Positions 26,570-33,839 of a stretch of 64,000 nucleotides of DNA are shown piece after piece; position 1 is the first letter of the stretch; each line of letters starts with the position of its first letter. The stretch covers positions 186,001-250,000 of the forward strand of contig NZ_LXYG01000018.1 of assembly GCF_001650905.1 (NCBI RefSeq), written 5' to 3'. The position numbers and the translations under genes were made by a program. Below the pieces are notes generated by a model. That model had not been told where the DNA came from. It saw only the letters and a program-made list of their open reading frames with translations, and made no database searches. This DNA is from Balneola sp. EhC07 (GTDB lineage Bacteria > Bacteroidota > Rhodothermia > Balneolales > Balneolaceae).

Positions 26570-27334
26570 TTATTCGTAAAGATCATCAACATCAGCCTTG
26601 CTAAGATCTATAAAAAGTTGAGCCATTTTCTTGCATACATCCTTAAAGAATTGCTCTCCTTTTTCAGCTGTAGAAGCTTTTGGATCACCAATTCCGGTAT
26701 CTTTTGTAACCTTAGACCAGGGGCGTTCACTCCAAGCCCAGTCTTCATTAAAAGCTGCTATTTTGTTTTTTCTTTCAGCTCCATCGCCCCATTCTTTCGC
26801 CGGTAATACTAAGTGCTGTTCAAGATGAAGGATTAAACTGGTTTCCATTTCGTCGGCATGATCTCCGGGATCAGTAAAATATTTATGCCGATCCAACATT
26901 TTTGGCCAGAAAGTTACGCAGATAAACATATCCGGATACAAAAGTCCAAGCTCCCGAACCATTGACTTAAAGTCGTTACCACCATGACTGTTTAGGATCA
27001 TAAACTTATGAATACCCTGCCTGTTCAGCACTTCAATGATATCTTTTAGTATTTGAAACTGAGTACTTGGATTTAGATTGATATCCAGATAGATATCAGA
27101 CTGGCCGGTATTTACACCGAATGGAATATTCGGTAATACAATTACAATAGCATCATTTTCCCAGGCAATCCTCGCTGATTCTTCAGCAATTGCTTTGCCT
27201 TCAATGTTATCAGTAGAGTAGGGCAGATGGTAATTATGCGCTTCCGTAGCTCCCCAGGGAAGTACAGCAAGTTCAATATCCGCATCTTTTAAATGCTTCC
27301 AGTTGGTTTCAGCTAAGATGTATGGTCTGATCAT
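26570..27334 (-). CDS. creatininase family amidohydrolase
   Basis: 254 residues. The metal site is in AVLPWGATEAHNYHLPYSTD (E31, H33, H36, D42 region), with NSHGGND and HADEMETSLI supplying further ligands. Family members hydrolyse cyclic or linear amides: creatinine, FAPy-type amides, and the mycofactocin peptide in MftE. No signal peptide. It is the last gene of the five-gene operon, 14 bases after rlmG. Here the substrate is unknown, but context with a GS-like ligase suggests turnover of an amide. Confidence 0.87.
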   Translation of the reverse strand: MIRPYILAETNWKHLKDADIELAVLPWGATEAHNYHLPYSTDNIEGKAIAEESARIAWENDAIVIVLPNIPFGVNTGQSDIYLDINLNPSTQFQILKDIIEVLNRQGIHKFMILNSHGGNDFKSMVRELGLLYPDMFICVTFWPKMLDRHKYFTDPGDHADEMETSLILHLEQHLVLPAKEWGDGAERKNKIAAFNEDWAWSERPWSKVTKDTGIGDPKASTAEKGEQFFKDVCKKMAQLFIDLSKADVDDLYE

Positions 27335-27348
27335 TATTCCTCAATTAT

Positions 27349-28437
27349 CTATTTCAAGCACTCATAAACTACAAATTTATCGTTCTCTGCAGTAATGGAG
27401 CAGTTTATAAACAATTTATCTAAATGAGTTTTATAGTTCAGATGTTTATTTGCTACCAAAACAAATCTTCCGGCTTCTTTTAAAGAGTTCTGAACCTGAG
27501 TAAACAGGCTAATTGTTACTTCAATGTTGGTTTCGTGTTCAAAATGGAAAGGAGGATTGGATACTACCAGATCAAGAGATCCATCTTCAAAATCTTCCAG
27601 AGAATCATTCCAATGGAAATGAGCGCTTTCATTTACATTCATTTTTGAGGATTCGACCGCAAGGAAAGAGTCGTCCACTAAATGAATTTCAGCGTTCGGT
27701 TGCTGAATAAGTATATGATCCGCTATCACACCATTTCCTGAAGCCAGATCAAGGATATTAATTTCTGATTCTTTGACTGTAAGATGTTCTAAAAGGAATT
27801 GAGTAGCATAGTCAATATGATCGGAAGAAAAAACTCCCGGGTACTGTTTGTATACTTTATCGCCAAATTTGATGTCGAGCGTAACTGCTTGTTGCTCAAC
27901 TTCTTTCTTATTTTTTAGAATGAGTAAACGGGATTTTTTCTTAGCTTTTGATTGCTCAATATCTACAAAATATTTACTGCTGATTTCGAGCAATTGTGGT
28001 GTAAAGTATTTGGTCATAAATCCACAAACGATGACGCCATTTTCTTTTAATGAGTTGTGTAATAACTGAAGATAGAACTCAAAAGCTTCCAATGATTTAG
28101 GACTCTTTATCACTCCTATATCGGTATCAGGAAGTGACCCCAAAGGAGATTTAATTGTGCGTGATTTCAATACTAAGGAGTTGATAACATAATTCCTTTC
28201 AATAGCTTTTTGATGACTCTTGTAATCTACTACTGAAAGCGGTTGCAACTTGAAAAGGGTAGTGGCAAGAAAACCAAAGCGATCGTTTAGCAACACTGAA
28301 GATTCATACTCATCACTCAGGTCGCTTATATACTCAAGGATCAGTTCATCAGCTGCATTCCAGGGTTGTAGCGATCTGTTTGTAGTTGACGGATAGCGTT
28401 TAATACCAAAGTCACGATCATTGTAAGTGTATTTCAT
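27349..28437 (-). CDS. rlmG: 23S rRNA (guanine(1835)-N2)-methyltransferase RlmG-like
   Basis: 362 residues with the duplicated RsmC/RlmG architecture. The degenerate N-terminal domain has RSLQPWNAADELILEY and LNDRFGFLATTL, while the active C-terminal domain has SAM motif ILDLASGNGVIADHI (about 228-242), VDDSFLAVESSKMNVN and the catalytic NPPFH (294-298). The run VFSSDHIDYATQFLLEHL and the ending VVYECLK match RlmG rather than RsmC. It modifies the 50S subunit. Overlaps the HAD gene by 4 bases; no functional link to its operon partners is obvious. Confidence 0.87.
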   Translation of the reverse strand: MKYTYNDRDFGIKRYPSTTNRSLQPWNAADELILEYISDLSDEYESSVLLNDRFGFLATTLFKLQPLSVVDYKSHQKAIERNYVINSLVLKSRTIKSPLGSLPDTDIGVIKSPKSLEAFEFYLQLLHNSLKENGVIVCGFMTKYFTPQLLEISSKYFVDIEQSKAKKKSRLLILKNKKEVEQQAVTLDIKFGDKVYKQYPGVFSSDHIDYATQFLLEHLTVKESEINILDLASGNGVIADHILIQQPNAEIHLVDDSFLAVESSKMNVNESAHFHWNDSLEDFEDGSLDLVVSNPPFHFEHETNIEVTISLFTQVQNSLKEAGRFVLVANKHLNYKTHLDKLFINCSITAENDKFVVYECLK

Positions 28438-29279
28438 TCCATAATGGATTTACAGACGAAATCAGGAATAATACCCGTAGATCGAATCTGTGATTCGTAA
28501 TTATCTTCACGAGTATTTCCCGAAAGAACCAGCATTGTTTTAACTCCAAACTTATTGCCACCCAATATATCAGTACGTAATGTATCACCAACCATAAGGA
28601 TATCATTTTTGTTTATATACTCATCTTGAATAAGCTGTTCATAAGCATACATGAACATTTGAGAATCCGGCTTTCCGAAATGGATGAATTTTTTTCCAAG
28701 CATATTTTCGACCAGTTTTGCTACACCACCGGTAGCAATGGCAATATCGTTATGTGAAACAGGGTAGTAATAGTCAGAATTAGCCAAAATAACAGGCATA
28801 TTTTTCTTTCTAAGGAGGTTTACTACTTTGTTGATGTCAATATTCCAATCGAAGCCTTCATCGTCTAAGAACACACAAGCTGATATATCATCAATATTGT
28901 TCAGATCAACATCGGCAACTGCAATATGCTCCAAACCTGCTTGCAGTATATAATCCGCTGAGTTTTCAGTCCCCAGATAAGCGATTTTACCACTGGTTAT
29001 CTTTTGCTCAAGAAAATGCTTCGCCATCATCCCGGATGTTATCATTTCATGAAGCTGAATACCCGGCAGACCTAATTCTACATATTTATCAACCTGTTGC
29101 TGTGGGCTTCGGGACGCATCATTTGTAAGAATCCTGAATAGTTTTTTCTGTTCACGGATAAAAGCCAGAGTTTTATCAGCACCTTTAATTAATCCGTTGT
29201 GATTTTTGACTACGCCGTACGAGTCCAGCATAATAACTTTAAATTGTTCTGCAATATCGAAAAAAGAAGGGTAGCTCAT
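28434..29279 (-). CDS. HAD superfamily phosphatase, subclass IIA (TIGR01459-like)
   Basis: 281 residues. The nucleophile D19 is in VIMLDSYGVVKNH; the usual second Asp of DxD is Tyr21, as in the TIGR01459 group where an aromatic residue replaces it. FRILTNDASRS gives the motif II Thr, PVILANSDYYYPV belongs to the class IIA cap, FIHFGKPDSQMF gives the motif III Lys, and ILMVGDTLRTDILGGNKFG is motif IV. It probably removes phosphate from a small metabolite; the Tyr may alter general acid catalysis. 3-base spacer from the kinase gene upstream. Confidence 0.85.
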   Translation of the reverse strand: MSYPSFFDIAEQFKVIMLDSYGVVKNHNGLIKGADKTLAFIREQKKLFRILTNDASRSPQQQVDKYVELGLPGIQLHEMITSGMMAKHFLEQKITSGKIAYLGTENSADYILQAGLEHIAVADVDLNNIDDISACVFLDDEGFDWNIDINKVVNLLRKKNMPVILANSDYYYPVSHNDIAIATGGVAKLVENMLGKKFIHFGKPDSQMFMYAYEQLIQDEYINKNDILMVGDTLRTDILGGNKFGVKTMLVLSGNTREDNYESQIRSTGIIPDFVCKSIME

Positions 29280-29282
29280 TTA

Positions 29283-30326
29283 TTATAGTTCTAAAGCGTT
29301 AAGTAATGGTTCAGCGTCAAATTTTTCATCCAGAGTGGGTAAATGAATTTCTAATGCCTCTTTCTGAAGTTTAGTGGCAAATATCTCATGAAAGAAAAAT
29401 CGGCCATATTTAATCACATAAGTGAGAATAAAAAAACGATATGATTCCTTAAGAAAGTGAATCTCAAGTTCTGAAAGTGGAAAGATCTTATGGTATGCTT
29501 TTAGAAAGATGATAAAACGTTCTTCCATCATAACATCCACATTGTAGCTAAACACGGTTTTATCGCCAATATCAGAAGCTACACGACTAAAGAAATAGAA
29601 ATCAAGCATTCGGGTACTCATCCGGAACCAATCGTAATCCCATCTTGAAAAAAGCTTAAAATTCGGTGTTACTGAAAAGTTGCCAATATTCCAGTCTACA
29701 AATACAGGAATGGTTTCCAGTTCGTCTCCACCTAAGGATTTATAGTTATCTAAAAAGAGGTGACAATGATCTCTGATCAAAGATCTGTGAACAGGGTATT
29801 CATATTTAGTGGATTTATCATCCAGAATCTCGAGAAGATCATTAACATCGTCCTGCATGGTTTTAGAAGATCTTGGTAAAGTAGCTTTTACAGTATCACA
29901 AGCTTTATGGAAGTGAGCTGTTTGCTGAGCTAACTTTACTATCTCATTCTTGTTCAGACGTTTAGGAAGTTTATTTTTAATGTGAATAGGTCTGTAAAAA
30001 ACCACCCAGGCATCTATAACTTCACTTTTATAACGATGAACAAACAACTTGTTTCCTTTCATCAAAGATCTGGCCAGAAAGTTTTCAAAAGGAGAGGGCA
30101 GATTATTGGAAAGTGTGTTTATAATGCTGTGATCTTCAACAAAGTGTTCGAACTTTCCGAAATAGGAAAGCTTGGCTACTATATAATTTTTGTCCTTAAG
30201 CGAAATCCTGTACACATGATTTGTAGAAACTTTCGCGCTTATATCCACGATGTGTGCTATTTCTCTGGAGATATCGTAGCTGTTCCAAGCCTCTCGAATT
30301 ATTGTATCAAAGTCGATGAATGCCAT
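29283..30326 (-). CDS. aminoglycoside-phosphotransferase-fold kinase-like protein
   Basis: 347 residues from the ATG at 30326, chosen because it forms a TAATG stop-start junction with the upstream ligase gene (the alternative at 30359 is a TTG deep in that gene). TNHVYRISLKDKNYIVAKLSYFG resembles the nucleotide-binding Lys strand, PVFVDWNIGNFSV the catalytic loop (VDWNIGN for HxDxxxxN, so the usual His is missing) and FSRWDYDWFRMST the metal loop. It probably phosphorylates a small molecule, but the altered catalytic loop leaves this uncertain. No close named family is recognised. Confidence 0.65.
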   Translation of the reverse strand: MAFIDFDTIIREAWNSYDISREIAHIVDISAKVSTNHVYRISLKDKNYIVAKLSYFGKFEHFVEDHSIINTLSNNLPSPFENFLARSLMKGNKLFVHRYKSEVIDAWVVFYRPIHIKNKLPKRLNKNEIVKLAQQTAHFHKACDTVKATLPRSSKTMQDDVNDLLEILDDKSTKYEYPVHRSLIRDHCHLFLDNYKSLGGDELETIPVFVDWNIGNFSVTPNFKLFSRWDYDWFRMSTRMLDFYFFSRVASDIGDKTVFSYNVDVMMEERFIIFLKAYHKIFPLSELEIHFLKESYRFFILTYVIKYGRFFFHEIFATKLQKEALEIHLPTLDEKFDAEPLLNALEL

Positions 30327-31681
30327 TAAACGATCTCGAAATATCTTTTTAATTCCCAATTAGCCTGCTGAGGATCATATTGCTTCCATTCCCATTCCCG
30401 CGTTTTTATAAAATGATCTGTGAATTCCTCACCAAAAAGTTCATTAGCTATATCTGATTCTTTCATTGCTTTAGTTGCTTTATGAAGATTTGTTGCTAAT
30501 GGTTCAGTAGTTGTGTTGTCGTATTCATTTCCTTTTGTAACAGGAATCTCAAGTTTTAAGTTATTCTTGATACCGTATAAACCCGAAGCGAGACTTGCTG
30601 ACATACTTAAATAAGGATTTGCATCCGATCCCGGCACTCGGTTTTCAACTCTTATTGCTTCCTGAGAACTTCTTATTACTCTAAAAGCTGTTGTTCTGTT
30701 GTCAATCCCAAAGCTTACAGTTGTAGGAGCCCAGGAGCCTTCTACAAATCGTTTATAGCTATTTACAGTTGGCGCAAACATTGGCAAGATAAAAGGCAAG
30801 CAATGAAGCTGACCTGCTATGTAAGATTCCATTAGTGAACTCATCTTGCTTTCTGATGATTGTTCGAAGAATAAGTTCTTTTTGCTTTCAATATCCCAAA
30901 GACTCTGATGAATATGCCCACTGCATCCGGGTAATTCTTTATTCCATTTCGCCATAAAACTAGCCATTACTCCTTCCTGATAGGCAATTTCTTTTACAGA
31001 AGATTTGAAAAGAACAGCTTTGTCTGCAGCTGATAGAATATTATCGTACTTGATACAGGCTTCATAAACACCCGGGCCTGTTTCAGTATGCAATCCTTCA
31101 ACAGGAATATCAAAATCATGCAAGGAATCGAAAATGGAATTCACGAAATGGCTGTGTTGTGACGATCTTAAAATTGAATACCCAAACATTCCGGGTGTAA
31201 GGGGTACTGGTGCCATATAATTTTTGTGCTGCAAGGTATGCGGTGATTCTACAAACGTGAACCATTCAAACTCATTACTAAAATTGGGTAAATAACCTAA
31301 ATCATTGCACTCCTTTTGGATACGCTTCAGTAAACTTCGGGGACAAACTTTATTCAGATCTTCTGAATGCTCAAAATCACCTAGAAAAAAAAGCTTGTCA
31401 TCATCCCAGGGAATTTTTCTCAATGTGTTTATATCAATAGTAGATAAGCTGTCTGGATAACCTGTTTGCCAACCGCTTACCATAGTATTTGTGTAGGTTG
31501 CATCATTTATATCCCATCCAAAAACCACATTACAAAACCCTAAACCATTATCTAGAGATTTTAAAAATTTCTCCTTACTTATCAGTTTTCCTCTCAGAAC
31601 TCCATCAATGTCTGTAACAGCGAACTTAATGCTGTTACTTTCTTGTTGGTTGATATGTGATATAATTTCTTCTTTGTTCAA
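30326..31681 (-). CDS. glutamine synthetase-family amide ligase (PuuA-like)
   Basis: 451 residues. The GS signatures are all present: EFEWFTFVE (metal Glu pair), GLHTETGPGVYEACI, GCSGHIHQSLWD, NSYKRFVEGSWAP, NRTTAFRV and RVENRVPGSDANPYLSM. The N-terminal beta-grasp domain (IKFAVTDIDGVLRGKL) is kept. Length and divergence fit the gamma-glutamylpolyamine/gamma-glutamyl amide ligases rather than housekeeping GlnA. It should join the gamma carboxylate of glutamate (or similar) to an amine using ATP. First gene of the five-gene operon; divergent from fni with an 81-bp shared promoter region. Confidence 0.85.
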   Translation of the reverse strand: MNKEEIISHINQQESNSIKFAVTDIDGVLRGKLISKEKFLKSLDNGLGFCNVVFGWDINDATYTNTMVSGWQTGYPDSLSTIDINTLRKIPWDDDKLFFLGDFEHSEDLNKVCPRSLLKRIQKECNDLGYLPNFSNEFEWFTFVESPHTLQHKNYMAPVPLTPGMFGYSILRSSQHSHFVNSIFDSLHDFDIPVEGLHTETGPGVYEACIKYDNILSAADKAVLFKSSVKEIAYQEGVMASFMAKWNKELPGCSGHIHQSLWDIESKKNLFFEQSSESKMSSLMESYIAGQLHCLPFILPMFAPTVNSYKRFVEGSWAPTTVSFGIDNRTTAFRVIRSSQEAIRVENRVPGSDANPYLSMSASLASGLYGIKNNLKLEIPVTKGNEYDNTTTEPLATNLHKATKAMKESDIANELFGEEFTDHFIKTREWEWKQYDPQQANWELKRYFEIV

Positions 31682-31762: not shown

Positions 31763-32788
31763 ATGAGTGAAATAAGAGACCGCAAAAAAGATCATATAAA
31801 GTTTACTGTTGATCAGCAAGCTCAATATGATCAATCAACTGGATTTGAAAGATATCAATTTATACATAATGCTCTTCCTGAAGTAAATCTAGACGATATA
31901 TCAACAGAGGCGGTATTGCTTGGACGTACATTTTCTTTTCCATTATTTATTTCTTCGATGACAGGCGGTTACTCTGAAGCAGGTCAGGTTAATGCTATTA
32001 TAGCAGAATTTTGCAATGAGAAGAATCTACCTTTCGGAGTTGGGAGCCAAAGAGCGATGCTGGAAGATGACTCTTTAACGGAGACTTTTTCCATAGTCCG
32101 GAAGAAAGCTCCAAATACTTTTATTTGTTCTAATATCGGTGGTGTTCAGCTAATAGGAGGTTTACAAAAAGATTCTTTAAGAAGTATGATTGATAGTATT
32201 GAAGCTGATGCTGTTATCGTACATTTAAACCCGTTGCAGGAGCTTATGCAACCCGAAGGAGATAGAAATTTCAAAGGAGTACTGGATGGGATTGAGCATT
32301 TAGTTACAAAAACTTCAATTCCTGTGTTGGTAAAGGAAACCGGAGCCGGAATTTCACAATCAGTTGCAAGAAAACTAATTAATGTTGGGGTTTCTGTTAT
32401 TGATGTAGCCGGAGCAGGAGGCACCAGCTGGGCAAAAGTGGAAAATCTTCGTGATTCTAATCTTGATCCTAATTTTGATTTCGATGAATGGGGAATCAGC
32501 ACAACTGATTGTTTAATTGATATAAATAAGCTCAAGAAGGATCATAAGTTTGAATTAATTTCTTCAGGTGGTATAAGATCCGCTTTCGATATAGCTAAAT
32601 CTTTATGTCTTGGAGCCGATTTTACCGCTAGCGCACAACCTTTTATTAAAGCAATTTCAGTTAATGGTTTAGAGGGAGCTGAAGAGTTATTTTTAAAATG
32701 GGAAAAAGATCTGAAAACCATTCTTACACTACTTGGTTGCAAATCTTTAGAAGATCTCAATCATTCACATTTAAAACTCAAATCCTAG
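31763..32788 (+). CDS. fni: isopentenyl-diphosphate delta-isomerase type 2
   Basis: 341 residues of a FMN-binding TIM barrel that interconverts IPP and DMAPP. RKKDHIKFTVDQQAQYD, FPLFISSMTGGYSEA, GVGSQRAMLED, HLNPLQELMQPEGDRNF, VKETGAGISQSVARKL, VAGAGGTSW and SSGGIRSAFDIAKSL are hallmark blocks. Followed 55 bases later by the polyprenyl synthase gene, so both supply the isoprenoid/carotenoid route. Confidence 0.95.
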   Translation: MSEIRDRKKDHIKFTVDQQAQYDQSTGFERYQFIHNALPEVNLDDISTEAVLLGRTFSFPLFISSMTGGYSEAGQVNAIIAEFCNEKNLPFGVGSQRAMLEDDSLTETFSIVRKKAPNTFICSNIGGVQLIGGLQKDSLRSMIDSIEADAVIVHLNPLQELMQPEGDRNFKGVLDGIEHLVTKTSIPVLVKETGAGISQSVARKLINVGVSVIDVAGAGGTSWAKVENLRDSNLDPNFDFDEWGISTTDCLIDINKLKKDHKFELISSGGIRSAFDIAKSLCLGADFTASAQPFIKAISVNGLEGAEELFLKWEKDLKTILTLLGCKSLEDLNHSHLKLKS

Positions 32789-32843
32789 CTTTTTAGGTGT
32801 ATAAGAATCCTTATATTCTCTCAAATTATTCTCCAGAGACGTC

Positions 32844-33839
32844 TTGGCACAAACCGAATTACACCAAAATCTTTACACACTTATAGAGAAAGAAATTTCA
32901 GAATTACAAATTCCGAAATTACCTGTGACTCTCTACGCCCCGTATTCTTACACAATGGAAACGGGAGGGAAGAGGATTCGTCCTTTTTTAGTGCTATTAG
33001 CGTGCGGTATCTGTAAAGGAGATGTTTTAGATGCAATTCCTTCAGCCCTAGCTGTTGAAATCTTGCATAATTTCACTCTTGTTCATGATGACATAATGGA
33101 CAGTGCAGAAACCCGGCGGGGTAACCCAAGTGTTTTTAATAAATGGGATCAAAACACCGCTATTCTTTCAGGCGATGTCATGTTTGCTGATGCATTCAGA
33201 CAATTAGAATTTTATGGTTCCAACGATTCTTTCTCAAAACAAGAATACGCTGAAATCAACAAAACATTTACCAAAGCAACCATTACAGTTTGCGAAGGTC
33301 AGGCTTTGGATATGGATTTTGTGGACAGATCAGATGTAGATCATCATGAATATATTCAGATGATCAAAGGTAAGACCTCAGCTCTGCTGGCATGTTCGCT
33401 TAAGCTTGGAGCTATTTCAGCTCATGCTACTGAATCTCAATCTGATATTCTTTTCAGTTTAGGGACAGAAATGGGAATTGCTTTTCAGATACAGGATGAC
33501 CTTTTAGATGCAATTGCCGACCCGGGAAAATTTGGAAAAAGAGTTTGTGGAGATATTTATGAAGGAAAGAAAACATATCTTACAATACTTGCGTTAGAAC
33601 GAGCAGATAAAGAACAGAAAGAGTTCATTGAAAGTGTTTTATCGGAAGAAAATTCGAAAGAAAAAGAAGTCGACGCTGTATTACAATTGATGAAAGAGTT
33701 GGAAGTTATTGCTGATACTGCTCTTAAAGTTGAACAACATTACAACAAAGCCATTGATTCATTGAATAATTTTGAAGACTCAGAATACAAACAAGAGCTT
33801 AAAAATCTTCTTATCTTTCTAAAAAACAGAGATCATTAA
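32844..33839 (+). CDS. polyprenyl (probably geranylgeranyl or farnesyl) diphosphate synthase
   Basis: 331 residues with a TTG start. The first aspartate-rich motif is D82-D86 (LVHDDIMD), the second is QIQDDLLDAIADPG; GGKRIRPFLVLLA and KTSALLACSLKLGA are typical. It elongates DMAPP with IPP. The residues before the first motif (FTLVH) do not fix chain length with certainty; GGPP is favoured because carotenoid genes are nearby. Located between fni and bamD on the same strand. Confidence 0.88.
   Translation: MAQTELHQNLYTLIEKEISELQIPKLPVTLYAPYSYTMETGGKRIRPFLVLLACGICKGDVLDAIPSALAVEILHNFTLVHDDIMDSAETRRGNPSVFNKWDQNTAILSGDVMFADAFRQLEFYGSNDSFSKQEYAEINKTFTKATITVCEGQALDMDFVDRSDVDHHEYIQMIKGKTSALLACSLKLGAISAHATESQSDILFSLGTEMGIAFQIQDDLLDAIADPGKFGKRVCGDIYEGKKTYLTILALERADKEQKEFIESVLSEENSKEKEVDAVLQLMKELEVIADTALKVEQHYNKAIDSLNNFEDSEYKQELKNLLIFLKNRDH

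Follow-up and report, generated by a model that had tools for sequence, protein, structure and literature searches.

What do five tightly coupled genes on the minus strand of a Balneola genome do together? They occupy positions 26570-31681 of the window, by which we mean the whole 64,000-nucleotide stretch analyzed here (Balneola sp. EhC07, contig NZ_LXYG01000018.1, positions 186,001 to 250,000), and encode, in the direction of transcription, a glutamine synthetase-like ligase, a kinase of predicted APH fold, a HAD-class hydrolase, an RlmG-like methyltransferase and a creatininase-like amidohydrolase. A first-pass annotation described the genes as coupled, and order, strand and junctions do match the DNA, against which the coordinates were checked: the ligase stop and kinase start overlap by one base (TAATG), the kinase and HAD genes lie 3 bases apart, the HAD and RlmG-like genes share a 4-base ATGA overlap, and a 14-base gap precedes the creatininase-like gene. 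Comparison across genomes points to something narrower than the operon. The ligase, kinase and HAD genes are a conserved three-gene module of many Bacteroidota, and the kinase-HAD pair within it was restricted, in our sample, to genomes that carry a type II glutamine synthetase (GSII).

An even draw of 392 Bacteroidota genomes (in the GTDB sense; genomes are labeled G###, with G000 the window genome, and loci L###) was searched with profiles for the kinase, the HAD protein, the ligase and GSII. The kinase profile gave 43 matches, of which 42 were accepted; the match in G318, a stop-containing fragment scoring 18.6 bits, was discarded. With the HAD profile (E ≤ 1e-60), 42 of the 392 genomes were likewise matched, and the two sets are identical (hypergeometric 1.7e-57, uncorrected for descent). 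A scan of named genomes confirmed at least 528 relatives among 596 stretches; the best 80 were retained, and their titles include Balneola, Balneolaceae, Chitinophagaceae, Saprospiraceae, Spirosomataceae, Cyclobacteriaceae, Sporocytophaga and others. With duplicates defined by identity over the last 300 kinase residues, 106 non-redundant kinase loci were obtained, 61 from named genomes and 45 others including the window. The HAD gene lies downstream on the kinase strand in 104/106, and the other two hold a HAD start only: L152 runs off the contig after 33 HAD residues, and in L126 (5152-5232) the match stops after 27 residues, some 400 bases short of the contig end, owing to a broken gene or an assembly fault. 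Inserts of 0.9-2.3 kb separate kinase and HAD on the same strand in L075, L122, L170, L172 and L178; an open reading frame (ORF) in the L172 insert is Rpn-like, yet falls below the cut-off of the Rpn model. The ligase stands directly upstream of the kinase at 60 of the 106 loci, in 42 of which the two genes overlap or are at most 28 bases apart, and is not directly upstream at 46, four of which are contig ends. Comparison of these loci shows joint inheritance of kinase and HAD, in most cases along with the ligase.

The association with GSII had not been foreseen in the first-pass annotation. GSII was called with NF041605 at E ≤ 1e-60, every match lying below the model's curated cut-off, and was present in 76/392 genomes, among them all 42 with the kinase (7.5e-36, uncorrected). 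The draw includes 48 genomes of the window's own family. All 29 that carry the kinase have GSII, and two of them GSIII, whereas GSIII is found in 18 of the 19 without the kinase and GSII in one. In this family the kinase set thus alternates with GSIII, also where the genes are unlinked. The same agreement holds inside single genera: in g4, g7 and g19, every sampled genome has either both kinase and GSII or neither (4 v 4, 3 v 7 and 6 v 4; Fisher 0.029, 0.008 and 0.005). Each of these genera holds both states, so kinase and GSII must have changed in step three times or more, provided that the genera are natural groups. The association is one-sided, as 34 of the 76 GSII genomes lack the kinase-HAD pair; the family's exception, G011 (genus g5), likewise has GSII without the kinase.

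Physical linkage was examined at the 106 loci. GSII occurs within four genes upstream or five downstream of the kinase in 24 (14 Balneolaceae-type, four of family f21 and six Chitinophagaceae-type, in differing arrangements) and GSIII in six. GSII is on another contig in the window genome, about 146 kb off in G056 and adjacent in others, so that present linkage alone fails to explain the match, although one old cassette may be its source. At six Balneolaceae- and Chitinophagaceae-type loci (L110, L112, L116, L125, L130 and L136) GSII and GSIII both stand beside the kinase-HAD pair, GSIII having been tested by profile on L110 only. A tree of 62 chosen GSII sequences, 42 from genomes with the kinase and 20 from genomes without, requires six changes of the kinase label, three of them forced by starred branches. 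A kinase-specific phospho-acceptor residue in GSII was sought and rejected: no Ser, Thr, His or Tyr separates the two sets by being kept in >95% of the kinase-genome sequences and <70% of the others.

The last two genes of the operon behave differently from the first three. Among 97 relatives searched, the kinase was present in 30, the window's own genome counted. At the 29 other loci, all fetched, the HAD gene follows the kinase in 29/29 and the ligase precedes it in 25/29, with GSII upstream in three of the remaining four and a contig end in one. The RlmG-like gene (27349-28437, minus strand, 362 aa; PF05175, 152.8 bits) is at the kinase locus in only 5/29, all of the window's own genus, and the creatininase-like gene (26570-27334, minus strand, 254 aa) in 4/29, all close congeners. 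Among eight congeners (G000-G007) the latter is at the locus in five and missing in G003, G005 and G006. Across 58 genomes searched, creatininase-like relatives (E ≤ 1e-30) occur in 23, 18 of them unlinked and 15 of those without the kinase; RlmG-like ones are found in 16, 10 unlinked and six of those without the kinase. Because both genes are found unlinked and in genomes lacking the kinase, a single five-gene pathway was rejected, and both are probable bystanders. The first-pass annotation had already called RlmG a misfit, rightly on this evidence, whereas its inclusion of the amidohydrolase in a pathway did not hold; conservation of gene order beyond the species, which it had proposed to look for, was found for the three-gene core, but for the full set of five only among close congeners, with no instance found outside the genus. 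As to identity, the RlmG-like protein falls well below NF011577 (157.9 bits against a cut-off of 468) and is better described as RlmG/RsmC-like; the creatininase-like protein exceeds PF02633 (180.9 bits against 31.3), falls below the creatininase equivalog TIGR04448 (62.5 against 235), and has 3lub as its nearest solved chain.

The kinase (29283-30326, minus strand, 347 aa) most plausibly begins with the ATG at 30326, where the ORF listing instead gives an earlier TTG. It matched nothing in Pfam or NCBIfam at E ≤ 0.01 and no PDB sequence at E ≤ 1, profile matches being at chance level (1.2 and 2.1). PF01636 matched 3 of 20 kinase members at E ≤ 1 (best 0.0081), the window protein not among them. 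The predicted structure (pLDDT 87.3, pTM 0.88, from a 20-row alignment) supports the APH fold assigned in the first-pass annotation. The best fold match is 6sum (Z 20.8, root-mean-square deviation 3.8 Å over 310 residues), followed by YihE (Z 20.3; 3.7 Å, 295 residues), NahK (Z 20.2; 4.3 Å, 327), homoserine kinase (Z 19.7; 4.5 Å, 300), the aminopropanol kinase 6ef6 (Z 19.6; 4.1 Å, 300), Plasmodium choline kinase (Z 18.8; 3.9 Å, 298) and ethanolamine kinase (Z 18.1; 3.7 Å, 299). Aminopropanol, homoserine, choline and ethanolamine kinases are thus all among the 50 fold matches listed; HipA kinases are not among them. The window kinase shares with AmiN, YihE, NahK, homoserine kinase, 6ef6 and the choline and ethanolamine kinases the fold, the catalytic Asp and Asn and a DxD motif, but is only 9-15% identical to them in the rows seen, has no assigned Pfam family and has lost the His that APH-type catalytic loops usually carry. 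This altered loop, VDWNIGN in the window as first noted, proves to be family-wide: [VILM]DWNIGN is present in 106/106 distinct kinases, with the catalytic Asp and metal Asn retained, while SRWDYDWFR is exact in 102/106 and the lysine pattern is found in 94/106.

The HAD protein (28434-29279, minus strand, 281 aa) scores above the HAD-IIA model TIGR01460 (121.5 bits against 100.15), and its nearest solved chain is 2hx1, which we take to be a protein of Cytophaga hutchinsonii and for which a literature search found no paper. In an alignment of 18 members, Asp19 (the nucleophile), Thr52, Lys203, Asp232 and Asp237 do not vary. D-x-D is the defining motif I of ordinary phosphatases in this class; the window protein departs from it with D-S-Y, and the aromatic that the first-pass annotation saw in place of the second Asp extends to the whole family: it is Tyr or Phe in 18/18 aligned members and, by script count, of 100 distinct HADs 73 have D-x-Y and 24 D-x-F as motif I. 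The other three comprise one DSYG that the pattern missed and two whose called ORFs show no such motif up to residue 80; no D-x-D was seen among the 100. 2hx1 shares the nucleophile and the later Thr, Lys and Asp motifs and is itself aromatic at this place (D-A-F), unlike the usual HAD-IIA phosphatases. LHPP-type D-x-S HADs cleave P-N bonds and may offer a parallel.

The ligase (30326-31681, minus strand, 451 aa; PF00120, 309.3 bits) is related to type I glutamine synthetases and falls below TIGR00653 (GlnA; 215.1 bits against 429.15), below the cut-off of TIGR03105 (type III) and below NF045547 (gamma-glutamylputrescine synthetase; 197.1 against 650). Residue equivalences were taken from alignment to solved enzymes and from PMC6529630. 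The residues for metal, glutamate and ATP are invariant (E137, E139, E200, E207, H256, H258, E346, R311, R334 and R348), whereas the flap Glu of PGYEAP (E327 of Salmonella glutamine synthetase) aligns with Trp317 in EGSWAPT. This Trp is present in 76/76 kinase-linked ligases (62 distinct) and in all seven ethanolamine-linked copies described below; the D50 place is Asp in 46 of the 76, in a region of uncertain alignment. According to PMC6529630, PauA7 has Trp296 and the ethanolamine ligase GlnA4 Phe331 at the flap position, six residues after the glutamate-binding Arg, just as W317 follows R311 here. Retained catalytic residues, a flap Glu replaced by Trp and relatives near ethanolamine permeases together suggest that the protein is probably not an assimilatory glutamine synthetase, in line with the gamma-glutamyl-type amide ligase first proposed. 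With GlnA4 of Streptomyces coelicolor and PauA7 it shares the glutamine synthetase fold, the catalytic residues and a non-polar flap residue (PMC6529630), but it is linked to a kinase and a HAD gene in place of a permease, dehydrogenases and hydrolase, and its substrate is a prediction. In Phaeobacter, C. salexigens and A. tumefaciens, operons for the gamma-glutamylation of ethanolamine (PMC10132767) have such a ligase as first step in common with the window, whose operon lacks their transporter and oxidation genes and has the kinase and phosphatase-like gene instead. Among solved chains the second-best match of the ligase is 5dm3, and we take this chain to be Csal_0679 of C. salexigens.

In the draw, the ligase profile (E ≤ 1e-80) matched 52 genomes, 41 at ≥600 bits, here called close, and 11 at ≤344 bits. 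Close ligases occur in 35/42 kinase genomes against 6/350 others, and in three genomes without GSII (G221, G231 and G352). A glutamine synthetase in G034 and G042 was rejected as the ligase, being a distant paralogue (32-34%); at L089 (5995-7350) and L090 (6080-7399), from kinase genomes without a close ligase, this paralogue adjoins ORFs of which some cluster with aldehyde dehydrogenase and others with a protein that is short-chain dehydrogenase-like by reading. Five loci of one other genus (L076-L080) have, next to the ligase and on the opposite strand, a gene resembling gamma-glutamylcyclotransferase (PF06094, tested on L077).

Seven close ligases are not beside a kinase, six in kinase-less genomes and one an unlinked copy in G200, whose kinase and HAD are on a different contig. 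All seven adjoin a permease above the cut-off of TIGR00908 (ethanolamine permease), and all have Fe-dependent alcohol dehydrogenase and aldehyde dehydrogenase cluster genes (tested by profile on L092) and a C26-type match. These loci (L091-L097, families f24 and f32), in which permease, ligase, Fe-dependent alcohol dehydrogenase, C26-type hydrolase and aldehyde dehydrogenase genes stand together, likely represent a gamma-glutamyl ethanolamine catabolic operon in Bacteroidota. A tree of 68 ligases was built without L033-L036 and sixteen named-genome loci that a hand-made list gave as duplicating G loci. In it the seven group together in a single clade (99/91) inside the kinase-linked ones; with a midpoint root the kinase-linked label needs two changes, one of which is a distant outgroup. 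In 28 chosen genomes, TIGR00908 was above cut-off in 12, six of 18 with the kinase and six of 10 without, and G255 has the kinase with such a permease about 14 kb off. For L143 and L144, the idea that an ethanolamine permease adjoins the kinase was rejected, as the permeases there, grouped by single linkage, have no TIGR00908 match at E ≤ 1e-30.

The reading that we put forward, tentatively and at well under even confidence, is a three-gene nitrogen-scavenging module around the kinase-HAD core. Most securely, to judge from its active site, the ligase would activate glutamate with ATP and join it to a primary amine larger than ammonia; less surely, that amine may be a small amino alcohol of the ethanolamine kind. 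More speculatively, the kinase could phosphorylate the hydroxyl of that amine or of the gamma-glutamyl amide, the HAD protein could remove phosphate in the same pool, its D-x-Y/F motif perhaps suiting easily leaving or unusual phosphoryl substrates, and amine nitrogen might thereby be trapped for release under ammonia shortage. Both the RlmG-like and the creatininase-like gene would be passengers. In favor of the module are the identical distribution of kinase and HAD, the frequent ligase upstream, the ligase's Trp flap, its ethanolamine-linked relatives, the permease near the kinase in G255, the cyclotransferase-like neighbor and the amino-alcohol kinases among the fold matches. Of the first-pass idea of a pathway that builds and breaks a phosphorylated or amide-linked metabolite, the amide-type ligase is kept and the creatininase-like member dropped, while the building and breaking of one metabolite stays conjectural. 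Several results weigh against the scavenging module. No gene at the locus is known to consume a phosphorylated amide, and 7 of the 42 kinase genomes lack a close ligase. The kinase's fold matches span antibiotic, sugar, amino-acid and protein (YihE) kinases and so pick out no substrate. W246 is the sole column kept in >90% of kinase-linked ligases and missing from all seven ethanolamine-linked ones, which may mean a different acceptor. Both kinase and HAD are absent from six of the seven genomes with ethanolamine-linked ligases, and the ethanolamine route therefore needs neither. TIGR00908 was above cut-off in 0/9 tested kinase genomes of the window's own family, and neither L143 nor L144 has a permease of this type near the kinase. 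G000 itself has no TIGR00908 match at E ≤ 1e-40 (other transporter types were not tested), and its C26 matches are weak, the best scoring 42.9 bits in a 520-residue frame.

These last two points, together with the lack of a permease and of alcohol or aldehyde dehydrogenase genes in the operon (unlinked dehydrogenases were not tested), make it very improbable that the operon represents a plain GlnA4-type system for ethanolamine utilization, for all that the ligase's active-site residues and its nested ethanolamine-linked relatives resemble one. It is somewhat unlikely that kinase and HAD serve a separate small-molecule pathway, for example for an amino sugar or a hydroxy amino acid, and are in one operon with the ligase for joint expression only: the 46 loci without a ligase directly upstream (four at contig ends) and the N-acetylhexosamine and homoserine kinases among the fold matches speak for this, but ligase, GSII and GSIII recur as neighbors across different families. 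The pair might instead control nitrogen assimilation by reversible phosphorylation of GSII or a GSII partner, with the ligase a co-regulated client, which we consider unlikely. It would account for the presence of GSII in every kinase genome against 76/392 overall, for the opposed GSII (29/29 against 1/19) and GSIII (2/29 against 18/19) counts in the window's family, for the agreement throughout g4, g7 and g19, for GSII near the kinase at 24 loci of several families in differing arrangements, and for the persistence of kinase-HAD without the ligase and of close ligases without GSII. However, GSII is independent of the pair in 34 of 76 genomes, G011 included, the 62 GSII sequences hold no kinase-specific Ser, Thr, His or Tyr, and co-inheritance as one old cassette could yield the same pattern.

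Divergent from the operon, 31763-33839 holds a type 2 isopentenyl-diphosphate isomerase gene (above the TIGR02151 cut-off) and then an ORF that is polyprenyl synthase-like by reading. Promoter-like sites numbered 15 against 19.3 in shuffles, and terminator-like sites 6 against 2.8 (sd 1.7); neither count is used for any conclusion. Viral carriage was set aside after a single scan gave one pattern match and no relative, as was anti-phage defence, for which the RlmG-like protein alone matched, to general methyltransferase-type models (mad2 1.7e-13, oMTase 3.9e-4).

A literature search showed no paper on this gene set among those listed, in agreement with the first-pass view that it has no named pathway, although one of the searches was too broad to count much. 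For annotation, the label "glutamine synthetase" at this locus would probably mask an amine ligase. To our knowledge, the tuning of nitrogen assimilation in Bacteroidota with the eukaryote-type GSII has been little described. It is possible, if rather doubtful, that an apparently undescribed kinase-HAD pair, working only alongside GSII, steers or feeds nitrogen assimilation across Bacteroidota through reversible phosphorylation of a protein or a gamma-glutamyl metabolite, in lineages that switch between this set and GSIII. Its identical distribution, its occurrence in none but GSII genomes of the sample, and two altered yet well-conserved active sites make the pair a concrete candidate that can be tested by knock-out.

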